Assembly: GCA_002427745.1 (NCBI GenBank)
Contig: DIYF01000124.1
Location: forward strand, 1 to 64,000
Source: Roseivirga sp. UBA6061
Lineage (GTDB): Bacteria; Bacteroidota; Bacteroidia; Cytophagales; Cyclobacteriaceae
DNA length: 64,000 nucleotides
Direction of reading: 5' to 3'
Shown: positions 1 through 16,256 of the stretch, piece by piece
Position numbering within the stretch: the stretch's first letter is position 1
Layout: each line of letters opens with the position of its first letter
The notes under the pieces: model-generated
Told to the model about the DNA's origin: nothing
Seen by the model: the letters and a program-made list of their open reading frames with translations, nothing else
Database searches by the model: none
Position numbers and translations under genes: made by a program

Positions 1-54
1 GACGCTATTGAGGATCGTGTTTATCTGATCTCGTGTTCTATCTAATTTGCTCAT
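1..54 (-). CDS. Phage tail-module protein, N-terminus only (runs off the window)
   Basis: An ATG on the minus strand at 54-52 overlaps the TGA of the upstream LysM gene in the ATGA arrangement, which is the spacing used throughout this tail operon. Eighteen codons are visible, beginning MSKLDRTRDQ, before the window ends. The position directly after the LysM protein suggests another baseplate gene (Mu J-like genes often follow), but nothing in the visible residues identifies it. Confidence 0.5.
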   Translation of the reverse strand, partial: MSKLDRTRDQINTILNSV

Positions 55-389
55 TGGTCGTTTGCTTTTAATATTTCGTCATTTACATCTCTCAGGGCTA
101 TGTCATCAAAGGAGACCAGACCCGTAAGATCTTCTACCAGTGCCTCGCCCGCCACGGCCCGGCTGTTGAGGCGGATGTCCTCTTCTGCATAATAGCGGGC
201 AACATCCTCGTTGGCCTCGTTGGCACTGTCAATCAATAATTGCTGACCGGGATAGAGTTCATCATCCAGGGATGACAGCTCCGGATTGTCTTCGATCAGG
301 GCAAATACCCCGTCTATGTCTCCATAAACCTCGAGAGCGACATCAAGCATGCTCTGCCCTTCACATATGGTATAATATCGCTTACTCAT
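51..389 (-). CDS. LysM-like phage tail protein (gpX-like)
   Basis: The 112-residue protein carries one LysM-like module at about residues 5-53: an opening YYTICEGQS stretch, a central helix pair, and the closing P-G-Q-Q-L-L-I signature. LysM-type tail proteins of myophages (P2 gpX family) sit at the tail tip and bind other baseplate parts or peptidoglycan. The remaining half is acidic and has no recognisable domain. The gene overlaps the previous gene by 8 bases and the next by 4, so it is read as part of the tail operon. The LysM call is fairly secure; the exact place in the baseplate is inferred from gene order. Confidence 0.7.
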   Translation of the reverse strand: MSKRYYTICEGQSMLDVALEVYGDIDGVFALIEDNPELSSLDDELYPGQQLLIDSANEANEDVARYYAEEDIRLNSRAVAGEALVEDLTGLVSFDDIALRDVNDEILKANDQ

Positions 390-669
390 AGCTGGCTCTT
401 ATTTCCAGTTTACCATTGGAATAGACATTCACTCGCTGCACGGTCATACCATCCAGTTCCAGCTGTTTCGCCATCTCCACACGCAAGGCTCCGAGGCGAT
501 CATCCTCTACATAGAGCCGAAGCCCCACTCCGGTAAAAGGGTGTTGTTTGAATTCGCCTTTGTTGGCCATCAGTATAAGGCCCTGATGTTGACGGGTACT
601 TTCACCCAGTACGAAGTCATTATGCTTCACCTGTAAATCAAAAGTCTCGTCCAGGAGTATATCTTTCAT
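382..669 (-). CDS. Small baseplate-region phage protein (gp25/gpW-like by position)
   Basis: A 95-residue protein with no membrane segment or signal. It begins MKDILLDETFDLQVKHNDF and has a mixed alpha/beta composition. Small proteins of about this length between the spike-like gene and later baseplate genes are usually gp25/gpW-type wedge proteins, but I see no diagnostic gp25 motif, so the functional call rests on order and length. Its start overlaps the stop of the upstream gene (ATGA type), and its stop overlaps the LysM gene, supporting translational coupling. Confidence 0.5.
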   Translation of the reverse strand: MKDILLDETFDLQVKHNDFVLGESTRQHQGLILMANKGEFKQHPFTGVGLRLYVEDDRLGALRVEMAKQLELDGMTVQRVNVYSNGKLEIRASYE

Positions 670-1181
670 CAGTGTTTTACTTTAGGGTTTTCAATTCTTG
701 AATAGTCAGGCAGCTGCTCTGCTGCCAGTTGTGTTGAAATATGAGCGGCCAGACCAAGTCCTCCATCCGGAGTTAATACCGGGAAAGGTGGCTTCAGGGC
801 ACTGGAGAGTGTATTCAGGTAACTGTTGATCTTCTCCAGCTGGCTGACGAGTTCTTCTACCCTGATCAGTCCTCCATTGGCTCCCCCGTAGAAGAGTACT
901 TCTTCTACCCTGGAGCATTTGGCTACAAAGGCATTCTCTGTAGAGTTACCAATCAGTACTACCAGCACGGAGCTGTCGACAGCCGGAATTTCCACCAGGC
1001 CTTCTGTTACGTTTTCGACTCCGGCCTTCAGGCGCACATCGAACATTTCCACGCCATCCTGTGGTAAAACCGTGCAGGTGAGTGTGTCTCTGTCTACTTC
1101 TTTGACTGAAGCCGGAAAAACCAGGTAGGGTGCCTTGATCATTTCCCTGAGTCGGTTCAATATTTGTTCGTCAAGTTTCAT
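669..1181 (-). CDS. Putative baseplate assembly/spike-associated protein (gpV-like)
   Basis: The 170-residue protein has an N-terminal part rich in beta strands that resembles an OB-type fold (residues about 20-100, ending in the segment VLIGNSTENAFVAKCSRVEEV), followed by a glycine turn (GGANGG) and a helical C-terminus. Myophage gpV proteins start with an OB fold and follow the gpD hub gene, as here. It lacks the long beta-helix spike tip of true gpV, so it may be only the OB adaptor. It overlaps the hub gene by 11 bases. Function is inferred from order and fold impression. Confidence 0.5.
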   Translation of the reverse strand: MKLDEQILNRLREMIKAPYLVFPASVKEVDRDTLTCTVLPQDGVEMFDVRLKAGVENVTEGLVEIPAVDSSVLVVLIGNSTENAFVAKCSRVEEVLFYGGANGGLIRVEELVSQLEKINSYLNTLSSALKPPFPVLTPDGGLGLAAHISTQLAAEQLPDYSRIENPKVKH

Positions 1182-2160
1182 CTGATTCGTTTGTCTGGGC
1201 TATCAATGCTCCGAGTTCTACTTTGCGCCTGGCGCCTCTCATGCCAAAGGTGGTGGTCACCGAATCGATGACATAAGATCCGTTTTTAAGGTCCGGGTGG
1301 TCAGGGTCCGTGATCACGGCTGTCATGCCTGGCGTGGCATATGGGATCAGGAAGGTGCTGATATTCCCTTCATAGCCATCAAACTTGAGTTCTCCCAGCT
1401 TGGTCTCAGCCATCTCTTTCAATACCTTTTCATCGGTAACATTGTAGAAAAACAGCGTTCTCTGGTCCCCTTTGGCATCGCCAAGCTCCACTGTCAGGGT
1501 CTGGTTATCTTTGGTAATGGAGGTGGCCTTGACCTTAACCTTCACATCTTCCTTTCTCCTAAAGGTGAGGTTGTTCTTAATTACATTTCTGGCCATATGG
1601 TAGCCGACTCTGCCTTCAATCCGGCCATAAGCCATACCTATATAGAGCTCATGCCCCCGGAAGTAAGCTGCCAGGCCATAAGATTCTTTGAGTTTGTTAA
1701 TGGCTTCAGCTGCCGAAACACCCGTGATACGATACTTATCGAGCTTTATCTCCTGAATATCTCCGGACAAGGTGATGGGAGTCGCGTTGCTTTCCGAATT
1801 GACCTGATCAACAATGTAGGTCACCACTTCCTTCACAGTAGTAGCGGCTTTCCAGACATGTTCGATATGCGTCCGTCTCAATAGCCAGGTGGGATCTTCG
1901 CATTCCAGCACCAGGGGCACATTAGGTTTGATCTTCTTCACATAGCCTTCAAACTCTACCTTGCTTTGCACGCCTTCATAGGCCAGGGTGATAGCAACCG
2001 GCTGCCCTACTTCAAAGTTCTCAGACAATAGCCTATGGGCACGTGGTAGTTTGAGCATGGCTTTATCATCCAGATTGCGCCAGCTCTTTTCAATTTTTAC
2101 ATCATTGATCTGGTTCAGGGTGATGTCCCCGATCTTTATTTGACAGGTAAGGGTAAACAT
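1171..2160 (-). CDS. Contractile-tail baseplate hub protein (gpD / late control D-like)
   Basis: A 329-residue protein matching the gpD/gp27-like hub family in length and layout: an N-terminal beta domain, the middle region with the AATTVKEVVTYIVDQ helix and the AAEAINKLKESYGLAAYFRG segment typical of these hubs, and a C-terminal barrel region (about 190-320) with the conserved GYEGNISTFLIPYATPGM stretch. The hub sits under the tube and carries the spike. It follows the DUF6046-like gene after a 52-base gap and is overlapped by the gpV-like gene. Recognition is by overall pattern, not a short catalytic motif. Confidence 0.75.
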   Translation of the reverse strand: MFTLTCQIKIGDITLNQINDVKIEKSWRNLDDKAMLKLPRAHRLLSENFEVGQPVAITLAYEGVQSKVEFEGYVKKIKPNVPLVLECEDPTWLLRRTHIEHVWKAATTVKEVVTYIVDQVNSESNATPITLSGDIQEIKLDKYRITGVSAAEAINKLKESYGLAAYFRGHELYIGMAYGRIEGRVGYHMARNVIKNNLTFRRKEDVKVKVKATSITKDNQTLTVELGDAKGDQRTLFFYNVTDEKVLKEMAETKLGELKFDGYEGNISTFLIPYATPGMTAVITDPDHPDLKNGSYVIDSVTTTFGMRGARRKVELGALIAQTNESDET

Positions 2161-2212
2161 GAACGTATTTTGAGATGTTGATTCGCCCGGATGAGCTCTA
2201 CAGTTTTGCGGA

Positions 2213-2911
2213 TCAGGTCTGGCTAATCAGATCGGTTCGGAAATCTTCGTCAGAAAAGCCGGTAATCTCATAGCGCTGATTGTTGTGCATACCGGGCTGA
2301 CCGGGTACAGAGATATTGCTGATTGCGATATGGGTGATACCGAAGACATCCGTAATAAGACTCCGGATCTTAAGCGCCCTGCGTGCTTCATAGAGATAGC
2401 GCAGTTGAGCCAGTTCATTCCTGGGGTACTCCCCGAAATGATCTTCGTTGACGATGACTCCCGAAATCTTAATCGTATAGTCATTGACGCTGATCAGTTC
2501 TTTGACAGAGCCTCTTCGCTGCACCTCTCCTTCCCGGTTGACTCCTGTGAGGGCTGTTTTGACAATCTTCTTGTTTCCCGTCACTGTAATGATGGGTTCA
2601 TTGGGAAGCTGATAGTCTTCCAGCATCACCGGCATTACCAGTGGCGTGCCGAGGTAGCTTTTGAGGTTGAAATCTTCATCGGTCACTTCCTGTACTGATT
2701 CCGGCTCCACCGGTACTCCATCAGGGTAGTAAGTGGTCAGCGGATTTTGTGTCTGCTCTTCATTCTCTGCCGGAACGAACTGCACCTCAGAATTGCTGTT
2801 ATTACCATTCTGAAGACTGGCCGGGGGAACAACAAATTTCATTCTCCTGGCATTGAGCTGCTGGTAAAGCTGTCTTAAGTCAAGCTGATTGGGGGTTTTG
2901 AACTCTTCCAT
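2213..2911 (-). CDS. DUF6046-like phage tail protein
   Basis: A 232-residue protein placed between the tape measure and the hub, where Bacillus PBSX-like phages carry the LysM baseplate adaptor. The N-terminal 60 residues are low in structure and rich in N, E and P. The region from about 85 on (LGTPLVMPVMLEDYQLPNEP, then the KKIVKTAL segment and DYTIKISG) fits DUF6046 proteins of Bacteroidota phages as I remember them; I could not check this. Start codon abuts the stop of the tape measure gene exactly. Likely a tail tube/baseplate connector, but this role is inferred. Confidence 0.6.
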   Translation of the reverse strand: MEEFKTPNQLDLRQLYQQLNARRMKFVVPPASLQNGNNSNSEVQFVPAENEEQTQNPLTTYYPDGVPVEPESVQEVTDEDFNLKSYLGTPLVMPVMLEDYQLPNEPIITVTGNKKIVKTALTGVNREGEVQRRGSVKELISVNDYTIKISGVIVNEDHFGEYPRNELAQLRYLYEARRALKIRSLITDVFGITHIAISNISVPGQPGMHNNQRYEITGFSDEDFRTDLISQT

Positions 2912-4699
2912 TTATTGGGCTGCGTAATTACCGCTGTTAAGGATTCTCAAAAACACTTCTTTCACTTTGGTCTCCACATCTGAGAGGCCCTCATCGAGGG
3001 TTTCGGCATGCACCTCCAGTGTTTCAATCATCTTTTCAAGGCTGATGTTGATATTGGTAGCCTTTTTACCTCCACCGGCTATATCGGTGGCACCTTCCTG
3101 GAGTGTGGCCATACTGCCCTCCCCTTCTGCTATGGCACCTGCTCCTGCCGGGCCTGCAATACTCGCACTGACCACTTTCTGTTGTGCAGCATTCTCTTTC
3201 AGGGCATCGGCCACTTTGGAATCAGCCAGTCTGAGCTTTTCATAGTTGTCTATTTCCTCCCTGACTGTTCTTTGTTCCCTTCTGCTCAGGTCACCGCTTT
3301 CCAGTGCTTCTTTCTTGGCCTTCAGATCAAAGCTGTTAAGCTCTACCTGGTTAGCTGCTCTCATATCTTCCAGTTCCTTCTGACGGTTTTGCAGGTCGGA
3401 ACGGAGATCCTCTTTTTGCCGGGTATTGAGATTATCTACATTATTGACCCGCTTTCTGAGCTCCTCTCCTTTGGCCAGTACCTCATTGGTCTTTTCATGC
3501 ATCTCGTTCATTTTTTTGGTGGCTTCACTGGCCTTATTGCTTTTTCGGGCAAAGGCCAGAATAGCCGCACCACCTGCCAGCAACAAGCTGATTACGAGAA
3601 TGATGGGATTTGACTTAAGTACGGTGTTGAGGATGCGCTGCCCGGCTGCCATCAACTTAGTGGCAAAGGTGAGTTTACCGGTAGCTGCACTGAATGCTGT
3701 AGTGGCTACTGCCTGTGCTTTTGCTCTTACGGCACTGACTTTGGCCAGGATATTGGTTTTAGTCAGCAGGCCTTTATACTTCGTCCACTTAGAGCTGACT
3801 TGTGTAATGGCATCTCTTGCCTTTGAAACAAAGCCTATCATTTGCTGGCCCTGGCCAATGAATTCCTGAATAGCCGGGCCATTTTCTCCCAGGAACATAC
3901 CAAAGCCTGTAGCCATTTCGGCTATTTTCGGACTGATGCTGTCCAGGGTTATCCCGGTCATTTCTGAGAAAGTATTGAAAGCGGGCACCAGGTTGGTTTG
4001 AATGCCTTCACTAATGCGCAGCCACTCTTCGTTCATGGCATCAGGCAGTACGCCTTTCATTACTTCTCCGGCTCCTGACATAACGGATGAGAGGGCATCT
4101 CCCACCGGCATAGTACCCACCGTACTGCCTATTTCCAGGAACTTATCTTTGGCTACATCTACAGCACCTGAAATGGAATCCAGCGCTCCGGGTACCTTGT
4201 TGATGATGTTGTCAGCGAAGTTGATCACAGCCTCTTTACCCTTCATCACCCTGGTCTCCAGGTTGTCCAGCATTTTGCCGGAGTTACCGGTATCGACTCC
4301 CAGTCTGGCCAGTACCCCGGCCATTCCTTCAAAAGTGCCTTCGGCCTTTGCTCCTTCCGAATTGCTTTGGAAGAGTGAGTTTGAGAAGGACTGAAACTTA
4401 TCAAAGGCCTGATTGACCTTTGACTCCAGCCCTCCCAAACTTTGCTCCAGGGCCCCGGCAGAAGCATTTGCAGCTTCTCCTTCGGGCCCGAAGCTGAACA
4501 AGGAGCTCAGTCCGCCACCAAGGTTCCCCACCACCTGGTTTACTTTATCCAGGGGTGCTGTCAGACTCTCAAATGCCTCAGTTCCAGAAATTCTGTTAGA
4601 GCCAAAGCGCTCGTTTACTTTGTCTAGTGTTTTGGTAAATTGATTGATAAAACCGCTGGCCTTATCGTTCACTTCCACGATGTATTCGTATGTACTCAC
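2912..4699 (-). CDS. Tail tape measure protein
   Basis: The 595-residue protein is alanine- and glycine-rich, helical, with repeated VGxMxxVxxG-type stretches, a strongly hydrophobic segment at about residues 355-385 (ILVISLLLAGGAAILAF), and a charged coiled-coil region (about 395-500). It lies just after the frameshifted chaperone gene, the diagnostic place for the tape measure. At 595 residues it predicts a short tail (roughly 1.5 angstrom per residue, about 90 nm by the usual rule). The start is GTG at 4699-4697, overlapping the TGA of the chaperone extension as GTGA. Confidence 0.85.
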   Translation of the reverse strand: MSTYEYIVEVNDKASGFINQFTKTLDKVNERFGSNRISGTEAFESLTAPLDKVNQVVGNLGGGLSSLFSFGPEGEAANASAGALEQSLGGLESKVNQAFDKFQSFSNSLFQSNSEGAKAEGTFEGMAGVLARLGVDTGNSGKMLDNLETRVMKGKEAVINFADNIINKVPGALDSISGAVDVAKDKFLEIGSTVGTMPVGDALSSVMSGAGEVMKGVLPDAMNEEWLRISEGIQTNLVPAFNTFSEMTGITLDSISPKIAEMATGFGMFLGENGPAIQEFIGQGQQMIGFVSKARDAITQVSSKWTKYKGLLTKTNILAKVSAVRAKAQAVATTAFSAATGKLTFATKLMAAGQRILNTVLKSNPIILVISLLLAGGAAILAFARKSNKASEATKKMNEMHEKTNEVLAKGEELRKRVNNVDNLNTRQKEDLRSDLQNRQKELEDMRAANQVELNSFDLKAKKEALESGDLSRREQRTVREEIDNYEKLRLADSKVADALKENAAQQKVVSASIAGPAGAGAIAEGEGSMATLQEGATDIAGGGKKATNINISLEKMIETLEVHAETLDEGLSDVETKVKEVFLRILNSGNYAAQ

Positions 4700-5186
4700 T
4701 GCGATTGGTCCTTTTCAAGTTTTCTGATATGCATGAGGAGAGTGTATTCTTCAGCCCACTCTGTATCGCTCAATGCCTCGGGGTTTTGAATGTTGAGATA
4801 GTAGCGAAGCTGGGTGTCGATGACACGGATGGAATTCCGGACGACACCCTTCGCTTCGTCTAGAGCTTTTTTATGTCGGCCGCGACTTCAGGTATCAGCA
4901 CATCGATCTGGCCACATGCGGCATAGAAAAGGTCATCATCTTCACGGATTTGTTCGTCACCGTCTATCCAGCAGTTGTTTATGATGATTTCATTGAATCG
5001 CATAGGGCTTTTCTGCCCCTGACTCAGGGCCATGGAATAGATTCTTCTGGTCGGCTTTTTAAGGTAGCAGGTAAAGCCACCCTCCACGTCAAGTTTGAAG
5101 ACATCTCCGAATTGTCTTTTCCATGTTTCGATTTGCTCCTGGGAGGGGCCGGCTTTCCGGCCCCCTGTTTCTGTTTGCTTGGACAT
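4696..5186 (-). CDS. Tail assembly chaperone, long form made by -1 frameshift (G-GT type)
   Basis: Reading starts at 5186 and runs 107 codons to the slippery site, then shifts -1 by re-reading G4866 and continues 56 codons without a stop to TGA at 4698-4696. The predicted fusion is 163 residues; the added tail begins ALDEAKGVVRNS and ends EKDQSQ. The -1 frame has no convincing start codon of its own until a late ATG, so a separate gene is unlikely. Tailed phages commonly make two chaperone forms this way just before the tape measure gene: the short form coats the tape measure and the long form recruits tube subunits. The downstream gene here is exactly that. Confidence 0.8.
4803..4872 (-). 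promoter_or_regulatory. Programmed -1 ribosomal frameshift signal (slippery heptamer plus stem-loop)
   Basis: On the minus strand the heptamer A AAA AAG lies at 4872-4866, in the zero frame as ATA-AAA-AAG, followed one codon later by the TAG stop. After a spacer of about 10 bases a long hairpin begins: left arm AGCGAAGGGTGTCG at 4855-4842 pairs with CGACACC at 4819-4813 and CTTCGCT at 4809-4803, with a three-base bulge (CAG) and a 22-base loop. A-type slippery sites with a 3-prime stem-loop are the classic bacterial -1 frameshift device. Confidence 0.85.
4860..5186 (-). CDS. Tail assembly chaperone, short form (gpG-like)
   Basis: The zero-frame product is 108 residues, ending IKKL then TAG just after the slippery run. 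Residues 20-105 are a compact helix/strand domain with the segments FKLDVEGG and YSMALSQGQ and an acidic region (DGDEQIREDDD). This length and composition suit the short chaperone of Bacteroidota and Gram-positive contractile tails. It lies 20 bases downstream of the tube gene. No direct enzymatic role is expected; it would bind the tape measure protein during tail assembly. Confidence 0.75.
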   Translation of the reverse strand: MSKQTETGGRKAGPSQEQIETWKRQFGDVFKLDVEGGFTCYLKKPTRRIYSMALSQGQKSPMRFNEIIINNCWIDGDEQIREDDDLFYAACGQIDVLIPEVAADIKKL

Positions 5187-5206
5187 AACTAAAGTATATT
5201 TCTGTT

Positions 5207-5623
5207 TTAACTATTGAATTCGATATCGCTGATGGTGATAGGCAGTTCAACTTCCATGTGTGTGTCGCCCTGGTTCAGCTCTTTGGCCTGCTCGGTAAAC
5301 TCACAACCTTTGAGTGTATCGGTGGTGGCCTGTCCGCCTTCTACCTCGTAGGTCACTACAATGTCGAAGGGAAGGATGTCACAGATATCACTGCCTTTAC
5401 CGGCTGCAATCTGAAGGGCTTCGAGTTCGCTTTGCAGCACTTTTACTGTGCCCTCGTACTCTTTATTGCCTCTGCCACGGGCTACGGGTTTGTTGCCCCT
5501 GCCGTAGATATTGACCTTGTTCTGGGTCACTTTATAACTGACTCCCTGGAAGCCCGAGATCGTACGGTCCAGGAATCTTACTGCTACATCTGAAAATGCG
5601 TATTCGTTTGTGTTAACTGACAT
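5207..5623 (-). CDS. Phage tail tube protein
   Basis: A 138-residue, mostly beta-strand protein directly after the sheath gene (2-base gap) and before the chaperone, which is the invariant place of the tube gene in contractile tails. It begins MSVNTNEYAFSDVAVRFLD and has the segment YGRGNKPVARGRGNKEYEG, like the XkdM-type tube fold where an exposed loop follows the first hairpin, and ends with a beta strand LPITISDIEF. It would polymerise as hexamer rings inside the sheath. Confidence 0.8.
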   Translation of the reverse strand: MSVNTNEYAFSDVAVRFLDRTISGFQGVSYKVTQNKVNIYGRGNKPVARGRGNKEYEGTVKVLQSELEALQIAAGKGSDICDILPFDIVVTYEVEGGQATTDTLKGCEFTEQAKELNQGDTHMEVELPITISDIEFNS

Positions 5624-5625
5624 GA

Positions 5626-6828
5626 TTATGCTGTTGGATTATCAAATTTCAAATCGACCTGAATGTTGGATGAATACCCTACCGGGATAATGGAAATGGT
5701 TGCCTGGATTCCATCATTGGCCAGGATGTCCTGATTCGCATCGAGAATGAGTTCTGCGCTGCTCGCTTCTCCCTGACTTACCATCTGGGCGTTGAAGGCA
5801 GTTTCTACATTGGCCTTGTAGCTCTTCATCACTACCAGTGGCAACTGACCTTGTGCATTGAGGGTAATATCATCCTCAATTTCTCTGGAGAGCACCTGAT
5901 AAGCGATAGATTGTGCTTTATCGATTACACGTCCTCTGGCCAGGCTTGAGAAATCATCTGACTCACCGGTAGCGGTTCTGTCGCTGCTGAAGAAAAAGCC
6001 ATTGATACCTGTGAAGGTGCGTGGCACGATGATGCCCTTATCGTGCAGGGCGCTTAAATCTGCTTCCTGAATATCTGCCAGACTGGTACCGTCACTCAGG
6101 AAGGCCTGTGTAAGTCCGAGGTCTCCGTTTTTCACTCTGGAAATTTTGCGCTGTACCGGCTGTGCTGCTGCTGCTCCCAGTGCTCGTCCTACTGCTGCTG
6201 CCTTCGATGCTGTAGGTGTGGCTCCATAGGGCTCAAAGCCCATCGCCACAATGGCTACGCGGTTATCGGAACCATTCGTATAGTCTTTCACGGCACTGAC
6301 CGTACCCTGATAATCACGACCTTCCAGAATGACGCGCAGTGGTTTGTGATCTGTGGCGTAGGCTTCTGCCAGTGCCTGCGCGGCTGTCACGGCAGCGGCC
6401 ACATCCTGATCAAATCCGTCTGAAGCAGTCACCACACCATCGGGAGTTCTGGCTACAGCCAGCAATCTGATAGCTCCATTAGCGGCCTCAAGCAGTTTTT
6501 TAGCTGAATTAGTGGCATTGCCCACAGTACAGATCTGAGCCATCGTAACGGTATCAGGCACGATCGAGATCCATAGCTCAGCACCGTCACCTGCCATTTC
6601 ATAGAAATCAGCAATCTGGCGGTGTACCTTGCGGTCATCGCTGTCATAGGCAGATGTAATTCCAAGGGCTTCAGCATCTGCCAGGCTGAAGATTTGTGTT
6701 GGTGTATCGTTGGTAAGACTGGCTGGTGCCGGACCTGTCATAATCAGACCTGCCACATCATCCGCAGTACTTTCAGTTCGGCCCAACTGGCCATTCAAAA
6801 TGTTTATACTAACATCAGGTAATCCCAT
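5626..6828 (-). CDS. Contractile tail sheath protein (DUF2586-like)
   Basis: A 400-residue protein of sheath size with the family's features: a short N-terminal strand region (GLPDVSINILNG), a central alpha/beta domain with the GVVTASDGFDQDVAAAVTAAQALAE helix region, the ALGAAAAQPVQRKISRVKNG segment, and a C-terminal domain with FFFSSDRTAT, SLARGRVIDKAQ and the closing strand VDLKFDNPTA. The terminal strands are those that lock neighbouring sheath subunits. It resembles DUF2586 sheath proteins of Mu-like Bacteroidota phages. It leads the tail operon. Confidence 0.85.
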   Translation of the reverse strand: MGLPDVSINILNGQLGRTESTADDVAGLIMTGPAPASLTNDTPTQIFSLADAEALGITSAYDSDDRKVHRQIADFYEMAGDGAELWISIVPDTVTMAQICTVGNATNSAKKLLEAANGAIRLLAVARTPDGVVTASDGFDQDVAAAVTAAQALAEAYATDHKPLRVILEGRDYQGTVSAVKDYTNGSDNRVAIVAMGFEPYGATPTASKAAAVGRALGAAAAQPVQRKISRVKNGDLGLTQAFLSDGTSLADIQEADLSALHDKGIIVPRTFTGINGFFFSSDRTATGESDDFSSLARGRVIDKAQSIAYQVLSREIEDDITLNAQGQLPLVVMKSYKANVETAFNAQMVSQGEASSAELILDANQDILANDGIQATISIIPVGYSSNIQVDLKFDNPTA

Positions 6829-6905
6829 GATAATAATTGGTTATAGTGGTTAATTCGCTTTCGCGATCCTGTTAAAATTTCTTTTCTGTTTTCAGTGTCA
6901 GGCCA

Positions 6906-7145
6906 TTATGCCTGTTTGCTTTTTTTCTTCTTCTTAGTCACTTCCTTCACTCCTGCCTTATTCCAGACCAGCTTCACTATCAGGCCTGCGATGCCACCTA
7001 CTATTCCGGTGATAAAGGCAAAGACCATCTGGCTCCCCACCTCTGTCCAGGAGAGGGCCGGGCTATTACTGGTCAGGAGAGCTGCCGCCAGGCTGAAGCA
7101 CATCCCTGAGATTTCACACATACGATTTAAAATGCTGTCTATCAT
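6906..7145 (-). CDS. Small membrane protein, holin-like
   Basis: The 79-residue protein has a hydrophobic stretch at about 12-26, a clear transmembrane helix at about 40-62 (FAFITGIVGGIAGLIVKL), and a C-terminus of consecutive lysines (KKKKKSK). Small phage membrane proteins with a basic tail next to structural genes are often holins. No endolysin is adjacent in the window, so the lysis role is unproven. It sits 77 bases upstream of the sheath gene and just downstream of a strong hairpin at 7161-7191. Confidence 0.5.
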   Translation of the reverse strand: MIDSILNRMCEISGMCFSLAAALLTSNSPALSWTEVGSQMVFAFITGIVGGIAGLIVKLVWNKAGVKEVTKKKKKSKQA

Positions 7146-7568
7146 TTGTTTTTAATAGGTGTTAAAGCCGGGACGGATCCCGGACTTTAACGGGTCACAG
7201 AAACATACTCCTTCTGTTTTGCCGGCCCTTCCGGCATACGCTATCTATCATTGTGTGCTATGGATTGTGTCAGACTGTTCAAGCTCGGTTAAGGGTGTAA
7301 TGGACCTAGTCTTCACATGATCCTTTCAGCTTATTCAAGGCCAGTCTATCAGAGACATTCGGCTTGTTTTGGGCTGTTTTTCAATCAATGATGTTTCAAA
7401 TATGCGGGGCTGACCTGAGCTGTAAAACGGGTGGTTACCCAATGGTGCGGCAATTTGAACGACTGGGTACGAAAGCGACCCCAATGGACCTGAATGGCCT
7501 GAAAACCCACTTTTTGATCTCCAGTTTTGATGCAGACAATTAGAAATGATATCAAAACCGACAGAGAA
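7146..7568. repeat. Gene-free stretch with a strong inverted repeat
   Basis: No convincing gene lies here. At 7161-7191 the arms GTTAAAG-CCGGGA and TCCCGG-A-CTTTAAC form a 13-bp stem with a one-base bulge and a four-base loop; no T run follows on either strand, so it may be an attenuator or mRNA-stabilising hairpin ahead of the holin-like gene rather than a terminator. The stretch 7430-7500 contains a repeated CCAATGG element and lies between divergent genes, so promoters for both sides are expected here, but I could not pick them out. Confidence 0.55.
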
Positions 7569-8015
7569 ATGAACGATCTAATCACAAGGAAACACTACAC
7601 AAAGAGAATCGACCAAAGCACTTTGAGTCGCTTGCTCAGACATGACCTGCTGAGTAAGGAAGAAGTGCGGATTGATGAAGAGGCGATCGCCTTTTCTATC
7701 ATAGACTGCCACCTGCAGGAGTTGTATGAAACGGACGGGCTGTTCAGTCCGCAAATGAGCAAGAGTGGTCTTCCGCTGACCGAATGGGTGGTAAGCATGG
7801 TACTTCATCAACTGTACAGCAAAACTGATGATAGCATTCCGGATGCAGTAATGCTCAACTATGTTTCTACCATGCAGGAGCTGGAAGACATCCGGACCGG
7901 CAAACTTGCCGTGGAGCTCCCGACAAAGGACCGGCATGAGCTGGACCAGGATATGGAAGAGCTTGATCCGGGGGATGATCCTGACTTTGAATCTCCCATG
8001 TTCTGGGGGATTTGA
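7569..8015 (+). CDS. Putative gp36-like head-tail connector protein (DUF1320-like)
   Basis: A protein of 148 residues from the chosen ATG (the frame is open back to a TTG at 7527, but MNDLITRKHYTKRI looks like the usual family start). The first two thirds fit the Mu gp36/DUF1320 pattern: acidic helix DEEAIAFSIIDCHLQELYE, then LTEWVVSMVLHQLYS and the closing helix YVSTMQELEDIRTGKLAVELP. The acidic C-terminus (DPGDDPDFESPMFWGI) is unstructured. In Mu-like phages this protein joins head and tail. Here it is on the opposite strand to the tail genes and has its own terminator, which is odd. Family assignment is by remembered pattern and should be treated as moderate. Confidence 0.6.
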   Translation: MNDLITRKHYTKRIDQSTLSRLLRHDLLSKEEVRIDEEAIAFSIIDCHLQELYETDGLFSPQMSKSGLPLTEWVVSMVLHQLYSKTDDSIPDAVMLNYVSTMQELEDIRTGKLAVELPTKDRHELDQDMEELDPGDDPDFESPMFWGI

Positions 8016-8054
8016 GCAGGGTGAGAGTTTCTTTCAGGAATGAGGAAAAAAATG

Positions 8055-8106
8055 TACCGGAACGGAAGGGTGAATTTGATAAAAGCCCGGCTGTTCCGGT
8101 ATTTTT
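8055..8106 (+). terminator. Rho-independent terminator after the gp36-like gene
   Basis: Arms TACCGGAAC (8055-8063) and GTTCCGGTA (8093-8101) pair perfectly over 9 bp, and TTTTT follows at 8102-8106. The loop of 29 bases is long. An A run on the left side (8046-8052) could make it work on the other strand too. Confidence 0.7.
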
Positions 8107-8146
8107 ATGTAACAGAAAGTAGAGAAGAATTGAAGGAACAGAATCC

Positions 8147-8350
8147 ATGGATATGAAAGTGAAGCAGGTAAGACAAAGTGATATTGTACGGAAAAGAAAT
8201 ACGCAGAAACGCTATGAAAAAGTGCGTGAACGCTGCAATGAGTTGTATAACGAACAGCGGATCCGGTGGGATGATGTGATTGAGACATTGTCGGAGGAGT
8301 TTGGGATTTCTCCTGCAACGATTGAAAGGAAAATATTAAAATCTGACTGA
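8147..8350 (+). CDS. Small helix-turn-helix-like phage protein
   Basis: A 67-residue basic protein. Residues 1-35 are a charged helix (RKRNTQKRYEKVRERCNE), and 40-65 read like a helix-turn-helix: DDVIETLSEEFGISPATIERKIL, with the turn at FGIS. Such small proteins are common in Bacteroidota Mu-like elements and may regulate the early or late genes. An ATG two codons later (8153) is an equally good start. It lies on the plus strand, opposite to the neighbouring minus genes, downstream of the gp36-like gene's terminator. Confidence 0.6.
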   Translation: MDMKVKQVRQSDIVRKRNTQKRYEKVRERCNELYNEQRIRWDDVIETLSEEFGISPATIERKILKSD

Positions 8351-8363
8351 GTGCCTCAATCTG

Positions 8364-8549
8364 TCAGTTTGCCTCAGATTCATTAATCGCCTTTTTGATG
8401 GCCAGGTAGTTCACAGCCATTTCATTCTTCTCTTCTGCCTCCAGGCACTCGTTCATCGGGCTGATGTAATATCCCAGAAACAGCCTCTCCAGGGTAGCCA
8501 GTAATTCCTGCTTATTAAATCTTGACAGCTGAATCTCCTCTTCTTTCAT
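8364..8549 (-). CDS. Small phage protein of unknown function
   Basis: A 61-residue acidic, all-helical protein beginning MKEEEIQLSRFNKQELLATL. It has no signal, membrane segment or motif I recognise. It ends 13 bases from the stop of the plus-strand helix-turn-helix-like gene, so the two are convergent. A terminator for the upstream gene lies between it and the next minus gene, so it likely has its own promoter in 8550-8614. It could be a small regulator or an accessory phage protein. Confidence 0.5.
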   Translation of the reverse strand: MKEEEIQLSRFNKQELLATLERLFLGYYISPMNECLEAEEKNEMAVNYLAIKKAINESEAN

Positions 8550-8614
8550 AGGGACGGTAATGGGTTCTTTGATGTGAATGTCTGCTTTCGGGCAAAACCA
8601 AAAAGGGCTTAGTC

Positions 8615-8648
8615 AAAAACACCTCATCAGAATGACGAGGTGCTTTTT
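8615..8648. terminator. Bidirectional rho-independent terminator
   Basis: Stem CACCTC (8620-8625) with GAGGTG (8637-8642) and an 11-base loop is flanked by AAAAA at 8615-8619 and TTTTT at 8644-8648, so either strand gives a hairpin with a U run. It ends transcripts of the minus gene at 8658-9095. Confidence 0.8.
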
Positions 8649-8657
8649 AAACGAGGA

Positions 8658-9095
8658 TTAGTAAAGAGGAACGGTTACTTTTCTTCTTCTTTCATAGCGT
8701 TTGTAGTGCTCTATTGACTTGGTGAGCATATCCACTTCATGCTGCAGTCTTTTGGATTCGGCCCGGGCACGTTTAATCTCGTTGGTTTCCACACGTCCTG
8801 GAAACCAGGTGTCTTCGTATTTTTTAATAATGCGGTCAGCCCTGCCTTTGCGCTTTTTAACCATGCGCAACTGAATTTTCATTTCCTGGTATTTGGGTGA
8901 TGGTTCTGGAGTTTTCTTCATTTGAGAATTTCTGGTTTTGGGTTTTTGATCTCCGTAAGCCAGTTCTACTCCCATAATCCGGGTGTTTGTTTTCAATGCA
9001 AAAAGAATCCGGTCGAATGACCAGCCGGTAAGTGCTACTAATTCGTCAATGGTTTTGAAGCGGATCCAGCCGGATCTGTATCTTATTCTGATCAT
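8658..9095 (-). CDS. Unrecognised basic phage protein
   Basis: A 145-residue basic protein. Residues 12-40 (FKTIDELVALTGWSFDRILFAL) resemble a small DNA-binding helical domain; the middle is low complexity, rich in K, R and Q (about 48-75), and the C-terminus is a predicted coiled coil (NEIKRARAESKRLQHEVDMLTKSIEHYK). I do not recognise a family. It sits between Gam and the strong terminator at 8615-8648, so it belongs to the early minus-strand genes. Confidence 0.5.
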   Translation of the reverse strand: MIRIRYRSGWIRFKTIDELVALTGWSFDRILFALKTNTRIMGVELAYGDQKPKTRNSQMKKTPEPSPKYQEMKIQLRMVKKRKGRADRIIKKYEDTWFPGRVETNEIKRARAESKRLQHEVDMLTKSIEHYKRYERRRKVTVPLY

Positions 9096-9120
9096 GGTAT
9101 TGTGCTTTTGGAGGTTAAGA

Positions 9121-9169
9121 GAGGCTATCTCAATCAGGATGATGAAAATCCGTCTTTTGAGATAGCCTC
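9121..9169. repeat. Perfect 13-bp inverted repeat between early phage genes
   Basis: GAGGCTATCTCAA (9121-9133) and TTGAGATAGCCTC (9157-9169) are exact reverse complements separated by 23 bases. It falls between the Gam gene and the next gene on the minus strand. There is no long T run on either side, so a Rho-independent terminator is uncertain; an attenuator or RNA-processing hairpin is possible. Confidence 0.7.
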
Positions 9170-9284
9170 ATAGGATTCCCTGCCGGTCCGGAGGCTGGCG
9201 AGTCTGTATACTTGTAAGGAATTCAAAGTTTAATAAGTCCGGCTGTACCAGCCGGCAATGGTATCAGTTGGAGGGTGTACTCAT

Positions 9285-9824
9285 TTACACCATGGCAAAA
9301 GACATATTCTCGAGCTGTCCTTCTTTGATGGTAATAAAGAAGGTTTCTTCCTGAACAACACTGACTCCTATTTGAGACAGTTCCTGCATCTGGTCCTTAT
9401 CATCCCGACTGGCGATGATCTTGTCTTTATCCACTTCCACACGGGTTCTGAGGAAGTCCGAACCGGTTTCATTGAGTGTTTCAATCACCTTATTCCAGGT
9501 AATGGATCTGGGCTTGCTGACCTTGGGGGTACCTGTACGGAAACCGATTACGCCATGTTGGAGGTCCATACTTCTTTTTTTCCGGAACAGCTCGTCCTTA
9601 TTGTGGATGCCAAAGGCTTCCAGTTTCTCCATTGCCTTTTGTTTTTGTTCGAGCAGGGTCTCGGCTTTCTTATGGTAAGTTTTTCTTACCTCCAGCAGTT
9701 GTAGCTCTTCCAGGGCTTCCAGTTCTTTGATTTTACTGCTTGCTTCAGCGAAGCTTCTCATTACTTCTCCTACTTCTTCTTTGGAAGGGGCTACTACAAT
9801 TCTCTTTCTGATTCTCTTTGCCAT
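9285..9824 (-). CDS. Mu Gam-like host-nuclease inhibitor
   Basis: Mu Gam binds double-stranded DNA ends and blocks exonucleases such as RecBCD; it is a bacteriophage relative of Ku. The frame is open to 9908, but the internal ATG at 9824 gives MAKRIRKRIVV, the usual type of start for Bacteroidota Gam proteins, and a 179-residue product, close to the family's length of about 170-175. A long coiled coil (about 20-75) is followed by the conserved globular part with RKRSMDLQHGVIGFRTGTPKV and the segment WNKVIETLNE. In Mu it is an early gene, matching its place next to the repressor region. Confidence 0.8.
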   Translation of the reverse strand: MAKRIRKRIVVAPSKEEVGEVMRSFAEASSKIKELEALEELQLLEVRKTYHKKAETLLEQKQKAMEKLEAFGIHNKDELFRKKRSMDLQHGVIGFRTGTPKVSKPRSITWNKVIETLNETGSDFLRTRVEVDKDKIIASRDDKDQMQELSQIGVSVVQEETFFITIKEGQLENMSFAMV

Positions 9825-9934
9825 GTTAAAATATTTTGTGTTTTGTTTTGTGTAATTCCACAGGTCAGTCCACTCTTCTCCGGGCGATCCATTTTCATGA
9901 TCTGCCATATACCCGGCTGGTGGTCATTACCTGC

Positions 9935-10342
9935 TTATGTTCTATTCACTTCATCCATTTCCTGTTGAAGTGCCCAAATGGTATGCTGTAATGAAAACCT
10001 CCTGTCTTCCAGGTCTACATCACATTCTTCTGCAGCCCTGATCTGGCTAATGGTATTTCTGAGATGCGACTTAAGCGTCTCCATCTCAGCGGTTGCCAGT
10101 TTCAGATAGTCAAACCGCAGCTGTTTCAGCTGATCGGAAAGGCTCCGCAGCTTGCTCTTCTTATCCTGGTAGGTTTGCCCCAAAGGCTTCTTCTCCAGGT
10201 TTTCTACCTGTATCAAGAGGATGGTCAATGACTTTTGAAGCTCTTTTATCCTCACAAGCAGCTCTTTTCTTTGCCTGATATCCTGGATTCTTTGCTGCAT
10301 TGACGTCCATGCTTTTCCGTTTAATGATTCTTTTGCTTCCAT
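9935..10342 (-). CDS. Coiled-coil early phage protein of unknown function
   Basis: A 135-residue protein predicted to be almost entirely coiled coil: repeated L-heptads through QRIQDIRQRKELLVRIKEL, then LRSLSDQLKQL, and an acidic C-terminus. It has no membrane segment or enzymatic motif. It is the first gene leftward of the repressor, so it is probably the first early gene under repressor control. Mu carries Ner and the transposase genes at this place, and this protein resembles neither. Confidence 0.5.
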   Translation of the reverse strand: MEAKESLNGKAWTSMQQRIQDIRQRKELLVRIKELQKSLTILLIQVENLEKKPLGQTYQDKKSKLRSLSDQLKQLRFDYLKLATAEMETLKSHLRNTISQIRAAEECDVDLEDRRFSLQHTIWALQQEMDEVNRT

Positions 10343-10401
10343 TCTCTTTTGCTTTCTGACCTGTACTGTTTCTATTGCTGCGGTCCGCTGCTATTCACCA
10401 T

Positions 10402-10562
10402 AATGAACACCACAGACTTAAGTCTCACACTATCACCTTATTGGGCACACCCCCTGATCTTTTGATAGTTTTTTATGTCCATGAATCTTATCATATTTGT
10501 ATGAGTTTGTGAGAGTAAATATATTCAATATATTGAACAAAAGCAAATTTTGAATTCAAAAT
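10402..10562. promoter_or_regulatory. Probable operator region of the phage repressor
   Basis: Two perfect palindromes lie in the 47 bases before the repressor start: TTCAATATATTGAA at 10524-10537 and ATTTTGAATTCAAAAT at 10547-10562. A weaker TTCA-N6-TGAA element is near 10394-10407, on the side of the leftward early gene. Shared TTCA/TGAA half-sites suggest one regulator binds all. The repressor downstream has a helix-turn-helix N-terminus, so autoregulation and control of leftward early transcription are the simplest reading. The -10/-35 positions were not resolved. Confidence 0.6.
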
Positions 10563-10570
10563 AATGAACA

Positions 10571-11443
10571 ATGCTTGATTTAAATACTATTGGTAGTAAA
10601 CTGTCTCTTTACCTGGAAAAACACAACATTTCAGCAAATCAAGCGGCTCGCATGTGCGACATGTCTCCTTCTCAAATGCACAATATTTTGAATGGAAAAA
10701 ACTATGGTATCCAGCATTTTATCAAAATCATGAATGGCTTTCAGGATTTGAATATCCTGGAGTTATTTGATCTTGACGTAACGACTCTGCAGAGGATGGG
10801 AGTAACTTTCGGAGACAGCCACAAAGGCCCGAATGAGCCTAAAGCTTACGACCTTGATAGCTCCCGGGCCTTACCTGTTGTAAATGAACCAGGCCCACCC
10901 ACGATCAAGCCTGTTATGGTTACCATGAATGATGAAATGGCTGAGAACATCGCTTTTGTTCCTATTAAAGCTCAGGCGGGTTACCTTCAGGGATATGCCA
11001 ATCAGGAGTATGTGGAAAAGTTACCTTCTTTTGGTTTACCGGGCTTTCAGAATGGCACCTTCAGGGCTTTTGAGGTGGAAGGACATTCCATGCTACAGAT
11101 AGACAACAAAGGTTTTCACCCGGGTGATATCACCATCAATCAATATGTGGAAAGCCCACACCAGATAAGGGATGGGCGGGTTTATGTGATTGTAACGCCT
11201 GATGGCATGCTGCTAAAGAGGTGCATCAACCGACTGGATGGAGAAATCCCCAGGCTGATTTGTAAGTCAGATAACCGCTCGGGAGACTATCCTGACATCC
11301 CGCTTTCTCCTGATCAGATCATTGAGGTATGGGAGTTTAAGGCAAACATTACACGTTATGCTTCTCCTCCGGGTGATGCCTATACCCTGATCAATGACCT
11401 CAATGTGCGGATTGCCATTCTGGAGGAAAAAATGAACCTCTGA
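10571..11443 (+). CDS. LexA-like phage repressor (HTH plus S24 peptidase)
   Basis: A 290-residue repressor. Residues 8-55 form a helix-turn-helix (SANQAARMCDMSPSQMHNIL). After a linker, the C-terminal S24 domain has the expected self-cleavage elements: an Ala-Gly site at 136-137 (KAQAGYLQG), the nucleophile Ser173 in GHSM, and the general base Lys216 in LLKRC. Spacing (36 residues from cleavage site to Ser, 43 from Ser to Lys) is close to LexA. This predicts RecA-stimulated autocleavage and therefore SOS induction of the element, as in lambda CI. It is transcribed opposite to the early and tail genes. Confidence 0.85.
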   Translation: MLDLNTIGSKLSLYLEKHNISANQAARMCDMSPSQMHNILNGKNYGIQHFIKIMNGFQDLNILELFDLDVTTLQRMGVTFGDSHKGPNEPKAYDLDSSRALPVVNEPGPPTIKPVMVTMNDEMAENIAFVPIKAQAGYLQGYANQEYVEKLPSFGLPGFQNGTFRAFEVEGHSMLQIDNKGFHPGDITINQYVESPHQIRDGRVYVIVTPDGMLLKRCINRLDGEIPRLICKSDNRSGDYPDIPLSPDQIIEVWEFKANITRYASPPGDAYTLINDLNVRIAILEEKMNL

Positions 11444-14402: not shown

Positions 14403-16256
14403 ATGTATAAGAAGTTATTTTACCCGCTCGTTCTGATCATTGTACTTTTTATCCACTCTTGCGGCAGCGATGACGATCCGGCAGTTATCACCATAGACAA
14501 CCCTACGGTGACTGTGAATTTTGACGAGAACCCCTCTCAGGACCAGGTGATCACTACCATCAATGCCAGTACCAGCAAAGGTTTTCTTACTTATTCAGTA
14601 GACAGCGAATCACCCTCCACAGGGGCTACCTGGATTGACATTCGTACCGGAGAACTCATGGTTGATGATATTTCGGAATTTGATTTTGAAAAGTACTCAC
14701 CGGCCGTGCTGGAAATCACCGTGAAAGTAACAAGCGGAGATGTCAACGAAACTGCCACCGTCACCATCAACCTGCAGGACATGCCGGATGAAGTAAATAT
14801 CAACGACCAGACAGTCTCTATTGATGAAAACCCAACGAATGGCCAGGTTGTAACGACAGTGAGTGCCACGGTGGATTCAGGCACCCCCAGGTTCAGCATC
14901 AGCTCACAAACACCGGCCAGAACTTTTGCGATCGACCCTAACACAGGGCAAATCACAGTCGCTGATTTCACAGCCATAGATTTCGAGACCAACCCTACCC
15001 TGACTATGCTGGTAACCGCAACGAACGGTCAGGGCACCGATAACGCCAGAGTAGACATTGATGTCAACAATGTACTGGAGACACTCACCACACAGGATGA
15101 AACCCTGACCATAGATGAAAACCCGACCAACGGACAGTCACTGGTTACCATCATGGGTGACACCGACCTGGGCTCTCCGACTTTCAGTATTCAAAACGAG
15201 AGTGTTGCCGGAGCTTTTGCCATTAACGAAACAACAGGAGAACTCACTGTGGCCGACCCGAGTAAGTTTGACTATGAGTCCAACACCTCTCTGACAGCCA
15301 ATATTGGCCTTACCAATGCCAACCTCCAGGCAACCTCGATAGTCACTGTTAATCTGAATGATATTTTTGAACTCTCCTGGACCGAAGCCACTGCCAATGC
15401 TGCCTTTGGAGGTGTTTATGGGCATCAGATTGTTAACCTGAATGGCACACTCTTTTCTATCGGAGGCATCAGGGGTATTGACCGTATCAATGAGGTATGG
15501 TCGAGCACAGATGGCAGCAACTGGACACAGGTAACCACCGGCAACACCATATTCTCAGCACGGAACGGTCATCAGGCAGTCATATTTAACAACAAGATCT
15601 GGGTGATTGGCGGCTTTACAAGCGGAGGTCGCTCTAACGAGGTATGGTCGTCATCTGACGGAGCCACCTGGACACAAGCTAACACTTCAGGAACCTTCTC
15701 GGCACGGGCCGATCATGCTGCCGTAGTATTGAATAGTAAGATATATGTTGTAGGCGGCAGTGACGGATCTATGCAAAATGATGTATGGAGTAGTAGTGAT
15801 GGAATTACCTGGAGCCAGGAAGCCACCAGCGGTAACCTTTTTACTCCAAGACAAGCGCATTCTCTGACGGTATTCAACGGCCAAATGATACTGATAGCCG
15901 GAGCTGACCTTGATGGAGATCAGCTTTTGCGGCAAAGGAATGACATCTGGACCAGCACCGATGGTAAAACCTGGACAGAAGTAAGCGTTACGGGTAACCT
16001 CTTTGTGGAAAGATGGATTCATGGTGCTATTGTACACAATAACCTGCTCTGGGTGATTGGAGGAGATGATGATAGCGGCAACCGCTTTAACGATGTCTGG
16101 ACTTCTCCGGATGGTGCTACCTGGACACAACAGACCGCCAACCCTGTATTTGATGTACGAGACCAAATGGCCTTGTTTGTCCTAAATAACAAGTTATGGG
16201 TAAGTGGCGGAAGTAATAACAACGGCATACTTACCGATATCTGGGTTTCAAATTAA
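14403..16256 (+). CDS. Lipoprotein with cadherin-like and kelch-like repeats
   Basis: The 617-residue protein begins with a lipoprotein signal (hydrophobic to residue 17, lipobox ending at Cys20), so it is probably anchored in the outer membrane. Residues about 30-330 hold three cadherin-like repeats with recurring DENPTNGQ and aspartate-rich strands. Residues about 335-617 hold five or six kelch-like repeats, each with GxxxVWSSxDGxxWTQ. A signal-anchored, repeat-built surface protein of this kind usually binds polymers or other cells; no catalytic motif is visible. It is divergent from the molybdenum enzyme operon, with a 275-base intergenic gap that has no clear signal, and ends before a strong terminator. 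Confidence 0.8.
   Translation: MYKKLFYPLVLIIVLFIHSCGSDDDPAVITIDNPTVTVNFDENPSQDQVITTINASTSKGFLTYSVDSESPSTGATWIDIRTGELMVDDISEFDFEKYSPAVLEITVKVTSGDVNETATVTINLQDMPDEVNINDQTVSIDENPTNGQVVTTVSATVDSGTPRFSISSQTPARTFAIDPNTGQITVADFTAIDFETNPTLTMLVTATNGQGTDNARVDIDVNNVLETLTTQDETLTIDENPTNGQSLVTIMGDTDLGSPTFSIQNESVAGAFAINETTGELTVADPSKFDYESNTSLTANIGLTNANLQATSIVTVNLNDIFELSWTEATANAAFGGVYGHQIVNLNGTLFSIGGIRGIDRINEVWSSTDGSNWTQVTTGNTIFSARNGHQAVIFNNKIWVIGGFTSGGRSNEVWSSSDGATWTQANTSGTFSARADHAAVVLNSKIYVVGGSDGSMQNDVWSSSDGITWSQEATSGNLFTPRQAHSLTVFNGQMILIAGADLDGDQLLRQRNDIWTSTDGKTWTEVSVTGNLFVERWIHGAIVHNNLLWVIGGDDDSGNRFNDVWTSPDGATWTQQTANPVFDVRDQMALFVLNNKLWVSGGSNNNGILTDIWVSN

Follow-up and report, generated by a model that had tools for sequence, protein, structure and literature searches.

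The window analysed here, 64,000 nucleotides (nt) of contig DIYF01000124.1 of Roseivirga sp. UBA6061 (a genome labelled G000 below), carries on its minus strand a cluster of tail genes. A small gene lies between the major tail protein gene and the tape measure gene, as in the lambda-type G/GT arrangement, and we refer to it as G. Read directly, the G open reading frame (ORF; 5186-4860) ends in GAC ATA AAA AAG CTC TAG, a sequence that places the slippery heptamer A AAA AAG in the register needed for simultaneous -1 slippage, with the zero-frame stop TAG three bases after it. In the -1 frame the sequence reads GCT CTA GAC GAA ... CAG TGA and is open for 56 codons (hereafter T), and its TGA stop overlaps the GTG start of the tape measure gene. 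A first-pass annotation of the window had proposed each of these elements, and direct reading found the heptamer (4872-4866), the stop (4862-4860) and the 56-codon frame (4866-4699) exactly where it had put them. Its expectation that an ORF caller would overlook the extension also held, as an ORF lister with a limit of 50 amino acids (aa) left the T frame unreported. The first ATG, GTG or TTG in the -1 frame is a TTG 31 codons in, so most of T in the window is unreadable from a start of its own. Heptamers of this kind are not rare: we counted 26 in the 64 kb (both strands, any frame), the next-nearest AAAAAAG on the minus strand being at 6925-6919. The weight therefore lies on register, position and conservation rather than on the presence of the heptamer.

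To assess conservation, we collected loci from genome sets (with matches in 5 of 59, 22 of 390 and 13 of 395), from species genomes (30 further loci), from viral contigs (80 kept of 85) and from seven phage records (three of 7 matching G and four of 13 matching the sheath). A viral scan with a single sequence found no relative, and A1 was too diverged to serve as a scan query. From 169 loci, three duplicates (L005, L007 and L008, equal to L014, L001 and L003) and five loci too short after G (L058, L059, L134, L136 and L156) were left out, leaving 161. A profile of T was trained on the 73 loci with A_AAA_AAG, one row being the window's own T. It placed a T domain in the -1 frame in 148 of the 161 loci, 75 of them outside the training set. 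The 12 loci with no T match comprise three fusions of G and T in frame 0, two Thermus/Meiothermus phages, one chance match (L028) and six G-like loci without a recognised T. The remaining locus, L056, has T in the +1 frame, which we read as an indel in a draft genome and not as a true +1 mode. A general +1 mode was likewise rejected: in the Meiothermus and Thermus phages (L042 and L043) a T-like segment can be seen by eye in the +1 frame, and the T profile gave no match there.

The slip site itself was examined in 115 clusters (90% DNA identity) by searching the span from the preceding stop of the -1 frame to the stop of G for in-frame heptamers. In 82 of these non-redundant loci this span, where a -1 shift would work, holds an X_XXY_YYZ heptamer: A_AAA_AAG in 56, A_AAA_AAA in 12, A_AAA_AAC in 6, A_AAA_AAT in 3 and another sequence in 5, including G_GGA_AAG in phage fF4. 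Two of the 82 lie unusually far upstream of the stop (31 nt in L153, 22 nt in L157). One locus, L073, in which a deletion truncates G, stays in the 115-cluster, GAG:GAA and start-codon counts; it is left out of the 114-cluster core count, the Lys-Lys test and the 61-cluster structure set, and is absent from the 106 anchored sites used below for structure, duplex-energy and Shine-Dalgarno-like (SD-like) counts. An A_AAN core is present at the site in 106 of the 114 intact clusters. The first-pass annotation had named in advance what would count against frameshifting, namely homologues that lack the heptamer and in which the -1 frame is closed; the counts just given are the outcome of that comparison. 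The heptamer also exceeds what the protein sequence demands. Among 70 clusters whose site encodes Lys-Lys, 55 have the full heptamer (33 of 40 when clustered at 60% aa identity), versus 58 of 673 Lys-Lys dipeptides in 460 ORFs of the same loci. Control ORFs were ATG ORFs of at least 150 codons, a few of which may be long G ORFs. The slip sequence is thus not forced by the protein sequence. A C follows A_AAA_AAG in 40 of 55 cases, as it does in the window, and a 3' C is reported to be more shift-prone than U in E. coli (PMC5009743).

Two observations concern unusual members of the family. In L046, a Tannerellaceae draft genome, the -1 frame after position 4309 runs from T without a stop into the next long frame, which we read as the tape measure; a frameshift there would yield a G-T-tape-measure fusion. 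In L024, L026 and L031-L036 the G open frames extend over 207-257 codons (stop to stop), with apparent long N-terminal extensions and several copies per genome, and the -1 T domain still follows.

The closest available comparison is with genome G008. Ten changes separate the T regions of the window and G008; in the -1 frame six are synonymous and four non-synonymous, versus none and ten in frame 0. This pattern, from a single pair, is modest evidence. The junction is identical base for base in G000 and G008. Among loci as close as the metagenomic relatives P0002-P0006, the scans returned only the G008 copy.

Downstream of the slip site, the first-pass annotation had described a 13-bp stem-loop beginning about 10 bases away. 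A stable stem-loop does lie there. The folding energy over 93 nt was matched by none of 200 dinucleotide shuffles, and a 66-nt stretch also stood out under synonymous-codon permutation (energies and z scores in Table 1). The minimum free energy (MFE) helix consists of 6+8 bp plus a 3-bp outer and a 4-bp inner part, and its main arm begins after a 7-nt spacer from the heptamer; the 13-bp register, starting at about 11 nt, is an alternative pairing of the same arms. Across the family, the 66 nt starting at +6 after the heptamer are more structured than their synonymous permutations (mean z -1.28, standard error of the mean 0.15, n = 105 of the 106 anchored sites), whereas control stretches in the same 105 clusters are not comparably so (mean z -0.02 at +72, 0.41 at +138 and -0.39 inside G). 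In a stricter set of 61 clusters, the mean z at the expected place was -1.23, below that of the adjoining stretch (Wilcoxon p 2e-5). Among the best 40 of the 105, the long hairpins at the expected spot differ between members, as expected where function requires structure rather than sequence. Three of the changes between the window and G008 fall under the hairpin; all are synonymous and all are at unpaired positions of the MFE structure, which is again modest evidence from this one pair. A stimulatory role for the hairpin, originally an inference, thereby gains comparative support, from excess structure confined to the expected distance and from a stem unchanged in two genomes; the hairpin is a putative stimulator.

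The predicted fold of G resembles known tail chaperones, including that of HK97. Neither G nor T has a Pfam match, phrog_19076, which G domains of relatives match (below), carries no named function, and Rfam gave no match within 4500-5300. Three genomes offer a different view of the pair. G610 and G718 belong to the same class, and each has within 20 kb genes for a DUF2586 sheath and a tube, a gene for G alone that adjoins the tube gene (phrog_19076 E 2e-16 in G718), and a DUF6046 gene. Beside the DUF6046 gene is a 156-aa gene in which a G domain (phrog_19076 E 2e-4 in both genomes) and T share a reading frame. In G649 the G-T fusion is on one contig and the G-only gene on another. Among the G-frame ORFs of the 161 loci (short ones excluded), the T profile matched the frame-0 T of G610, G718 and G649 with E values of 9e-9, 1e-9 and 3e-7. 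The paired genes are at L211:7545-8015 and 15261-15719, at L212:14678-15148 and 7077-7421, and in L168 and L164. In these three genomes, separate genes seem to replace the frameshift, an independent hint that both G and a G-T fusion (GT) are wanted.

Collectively, these data make it very probable that the window encodes a programmed -1 ribosomal frameshift in a lambda-type G/GT tail assembly chaperone gene. Most ribosomes would finish G at the UAG. On a minority, the two Lys-tRNAs would slip from A_AAA_AAG into the -1 frame, aided by the downstream hairpin and possibly by the 3' C, and these ribosomes would produce GT, in which the 56-residue T domain extends G. The analogy with lambda suggests that G would coat the tape measure protein, that the few GT molecules would recruit tail tube subunits and that the G:GT ratio would matter for tail assembly.

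Several observations weigh against this interpretation. The window-specific sequence comparison rests on one close relative, and a Foldseek search of G against the PDB gave no match reaching E 1e-3. The hairpin excess is not universal, with z below -2 in 30% of the 105 loci. No canonical heptamer was found in 33 of the 115 non-redundant loci, so it is not obligatory in the family; 27 of the 33 keep a tetramer A_AAN at the usual place, chiefly as G_GAA_AAG (13) and also, for example, as G_GTA_AAG. The tRNA complement of the host adds a further point. AAAAAAG is reported to be highly shift-prone in bacteria with a single tRNA-Lys(UUU) (PMC3196728; cf. PMC5009743), and the insertion sequence (IS) cases described in PMC3196728 also come from a member of the Bacteroidota. 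An anticodon scan of all 39 tRNA matches in the host assembly located a tRNA-Lys(UUU) on contig C106, which counts in favour of the frameshift reading. The short contig C76 (5.8 kb) has a dense tRNA array (G000:C76:4227-5003, L200) with a second tRNA-Lys(UUU) and a tRNA-Lys(CUU). As a tRNA-Lys(CUU) is present, the single-tRNA-Lys condition for high shiftiness may fail, although the C76 array may be mobile, foreign or phage-borne, and evidence of this kind from a 188-contig assembly is suggestive only.

Many relatives carry an additional element that the window does not; the first-pass annotation of the signal mentions neither it nor the lack of clear head genes. In Bacteroidota relatives (e.g. 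L050, L060, L066 and L121), an SD-like AA(A/G)GAGG is enriched 12 to 8 nt before the heptamer. By criteria published for E. coli (PMC4066793), an SD-like element is present at 58 of the 106 anchored sites versus 676 of 4499 A_AAN controls, and in 28 of 61 clusters at 60% identity versus 140 of 1008 controls of stricter make. It occurs in bacterial genomes (25 of 49 sites), viral contigs (31 of 53) and phage records (2 of 4), and is absent at the slip sites of the window and G008. Codon choice follows the same pattern. The seventh codon before the G stop is often Glu, written GAG 51 times and GAA 14 times, versus 306 and 583 elsewhere in G. In the context Lys-Glu-Ala the counts are 36 GAG and 8 GAA, versus 19 and 50 in other ORFs (p 1e-8), and AAG GAG, the strongest SD form, accounts for 25 of 44 versus 9 of 69. 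The bias persists in the Glu-Ala context across 70 clusters at 60% identity (18 GAG, 6 GAA, p 0.003). A trade-off between SD-like element and hairpin was considered and rejected (rho 0.005 with hairpin z, p 0.96); with raw hairpin MFE there is a weak positive relation (rho 0.21, p 0.035).

This enrichment was unexpected, given reports that ribosomes of Bacteroidia keep the anti-SD sequestered (PMC9976891, PMC8710568) and fail to recognise SD sequences. The prfB genes of 523 of 726 Bacteroidia genomes are nonetheless described as keeping a +1 shift with an SD-like sequence (PMC8710568), a shift reported to be inefficient in F. johnsoniae (PMC12421855). We found GGAACACCTCCTTTCT, which we read as a 16S end retaining CCUCC, in G610, G498 and G008, and not in the window's own assembly, G365 or G535. 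Some results argue against an SD function. In 47 clusters at 45% identity, the GAG:GAA ratio in the Glu-Ala context falls to 9:4 (p 0.09). Permuted anti-SD targets also gain pairing (z -9.2, -4.9 and -3.5 versus -7.7 for the true target; energy gains of 1.3, 0.6 and 0.6 versus 1.9 kcal/mol), so pairing energy alone is not specific. Pairing of this stretch with the mRNA downstream is likewise slightly stronger (z -2.8). In a separate comparison of duplex energies with a synonymous null, offsets -34, -33, -30 and -29 are disregarded. Our tentative reading for the wider family, which we hold at a little below even chances, is that an internal SD-like AAGGAGG 7 nt before the slip site boosts -1 frameshifting on Bacteroidota ribosomes, whose anti-SD would be exposed during elongation. 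Lineages without the element, such as that of the window, would use heptamer and hairpin, and others would have swapped the frameshift for separate G and GT genes.

The same data bear on other ways in which T might be made. The change of frame could arise by transcriptional slippage on an A run rather than on the ribosome, and the window site does contain a run of six A. This is very improbable in our assessment: the 27 of 115 loci that have T in -1 and only the A_AAN tetramer mostly offer three or four A, which argues against transcriptional slippage as a general mechanism, and both the downstream structure and the upstream SD-like enrichment fit ribosomal slippage. T could instead be a separate small protein, unfused to G and read from its own start. 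In the deposited annotations of lotta8-1 (gp039; L039:5288-5416) and fF4 (QHJ72924; L041:7061-7204), a small ORF of its own does cover the 3' half of T, and 39 of the 115 non-redundant loci have a possible start (ATG, GTG or TTG) ahead of the T core or within its first ten residues. Yet 76 of the 115 have no such start and 97 have no such ATG, none is present in the window by direct reading, synonymous codon choice preserves the slip site, and three genomes have T joined in frame 0 to a G domain. We therefore regard an independent T as extremely improbable.

A more trivial explanation is that G and T were once a single frame, split by a sequencing error or by an indel in a decaying gene. In its favour, the source assemblies are drafts, and L056 has an apparent indel in T and L073 a deletion in G. 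We consider its likelihood here negligible: 148 of 161 loci show the same -1 relation, substitutions in the -1 frame are mostly synonymous, and G000 and G008 share the same junction, a conservation that already contradicts an indel. Programmed frameshifting on the ribosome remains our preferred account of the G-T junction.

The genes around G are listed in Table 1. The 138-aa protein, which also matches a family named major head protein, we read as the tail tube from its position adjoining the sheath. For the tape measure ORF, which is 90% identical to the G008 copy, the better PHROG match is phrog_971, named endolysin (E 4e-7). Three small genes among the baseplate genes are assigned a role in the cluster from position.

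Table 1. Features of the frameshift signal and of the surrounding tail genes in the window.
Feature	Position	Strand	Evidence
Gene G, tail assembly chaperone, zero frame, 108 aa	4860..5186	-	TAG stop at 4862-4860
Slippery heptamer A_AAA_AAG, in register with G, 3'-adjacent base C	4866..4872	-	direct reading; conservation
Downstream stem-loop, putative stimulator	4802..4862	-	MFE -28.9 kcal/mol, z -4.65; synonymous-permutation z -3.3
T domain, -1 frame extension, 56 codons	4699..4866	-	TGA stop 4698-4696; T profile match in -1 frame
Tape measure protein gene, 595 aa, GTG start (4699) overlapping T stop	2912..4699	-	phrog_9959 tape measure E 2e-6; position
Tail tube / major tail protein gene, 138 aa (role suggested by position)	5207..5623	-	phrog_4579 tail protein E 2e-21; phrog_9206 (named major head protein) E 7e-34
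Tail sheath gene, 400 aa	5626..6828	-	DUF2586, PF10758: Pfam E 5e-62; PHROG tail sheath E 9e-40
Baseplate/hub genes (DUF6046, GPD-like hub) and three smaller genes, same cluster	51..2911	-	profile matches

In G008 the cluster occupies C61 151627-170617, corresponding to positions 1-11443 of the window together with G000:C132 97814-104900; in G000 the genes come in the same order, partly at the end of C132 and partly at the start of C11. The same neighbour genes flank both sides in G000 (on two contigs) and G008, indicating a fixed chromosomal site, as judged from two Roseivirga-like genomes only. G is present in 2 of 19 genomes of the genus. Scanning 22 cluster ORFs of the window or G008 with PHROGs, and 18 of them also with Pfam, identified a sheath, a tube, a hub, a lectin-domain protein, a Mu Gam-like protein and an S24 repressor, as well as a weak match to a baseplate-wedge-like protein (phrog_6 E 2e-3). 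The same scans gave no match to a terminase, portal, capsid protease or integrase. A 162-aa ORF (7527-8015) matches a head-tail adaptor weakly (E 1e-3; 3e-6 for the G008 copy). This contractile-tail cluster, without clear head genes, is probably a tailocin.

The arrangement closely parallels known systems. As in lambda G/GT, the window gene adjoins those for the tail tube and tape measure, the -1 shift would occur near the 3' end of G, and the T ORF reaches the tape measure; the predicted fold of G adds the likeness to the HK97 chaperone. The lambda slip site is G_GGA_AAG. The window differs from lambda in its A_AAA_AAG site, contractile tail, strong hairpin and a G without a Pfam match. G/GT frameshifting, as a conserved feature of double-stranded DNA phage tail genes, is established (Xu, Hendrix and Duda 2004, as cited in PMC5009743). 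The -1 shifts of E. coli dnaX and of IS elements, as reported in PMC5009743, PMC4066793 and PMC3196728, likewise combine A_AAA_AAG with a downstream stem-loop, and the SD-like element upstream has its counterpart in many relatives of the window. The window itself differs in having no such element, in making a tail chaperone and in belonging to the Bacteroidota, with their reported anti-SD occlusion. The Bacteroidia prfB shift (PMC8710568) is described as pairing an SD-like AGGAGG with a programmed shift site in the same phylum; it is a +1 shift at a stop codon with short spacing, whereas here the shift is -1 and the SD-like element lies 7 nt before the heptamer, in relatives only. The Winoviridae phages lotta8-1, Peternella_1 and fF4 share the order sheath, tube, G, T and then tape measure or next tail gene, with -1 T slip sites A_AAA_AAG (lotta8-1, Peternella_1) and G_GGA_AAG (fF4). 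They differ in having annotated protease or capsid genes, and no frameshift is annotated in the examined stretches of their records. Among the titles and abstract openings listed by searches of open-licence literature, we recognised no paper that describes this signal, or that reports for Bacteroidota phages a -1 site with an SD-like element.

The kind of frameshift described here is well known; what adds slightly to it is the breadth of the family, its probable tailocin setting, the genomes with split genes and the unexpected SD-like element in relatives. Our findings add a broad set of predicted Bacteroidota tail chaperone frameshifts, one of them in what is probably a tailocin, and gene calls in deposited phages would be corrected accordingly. 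Natural experiments are available within the family, in which slip sites are graded, hairpins and SD-like elements are present or absent, and some genomes keep G and GT as separate genes; it makes SD pairing during elongation by ribosomes with an occluded anti-SD directly testable.

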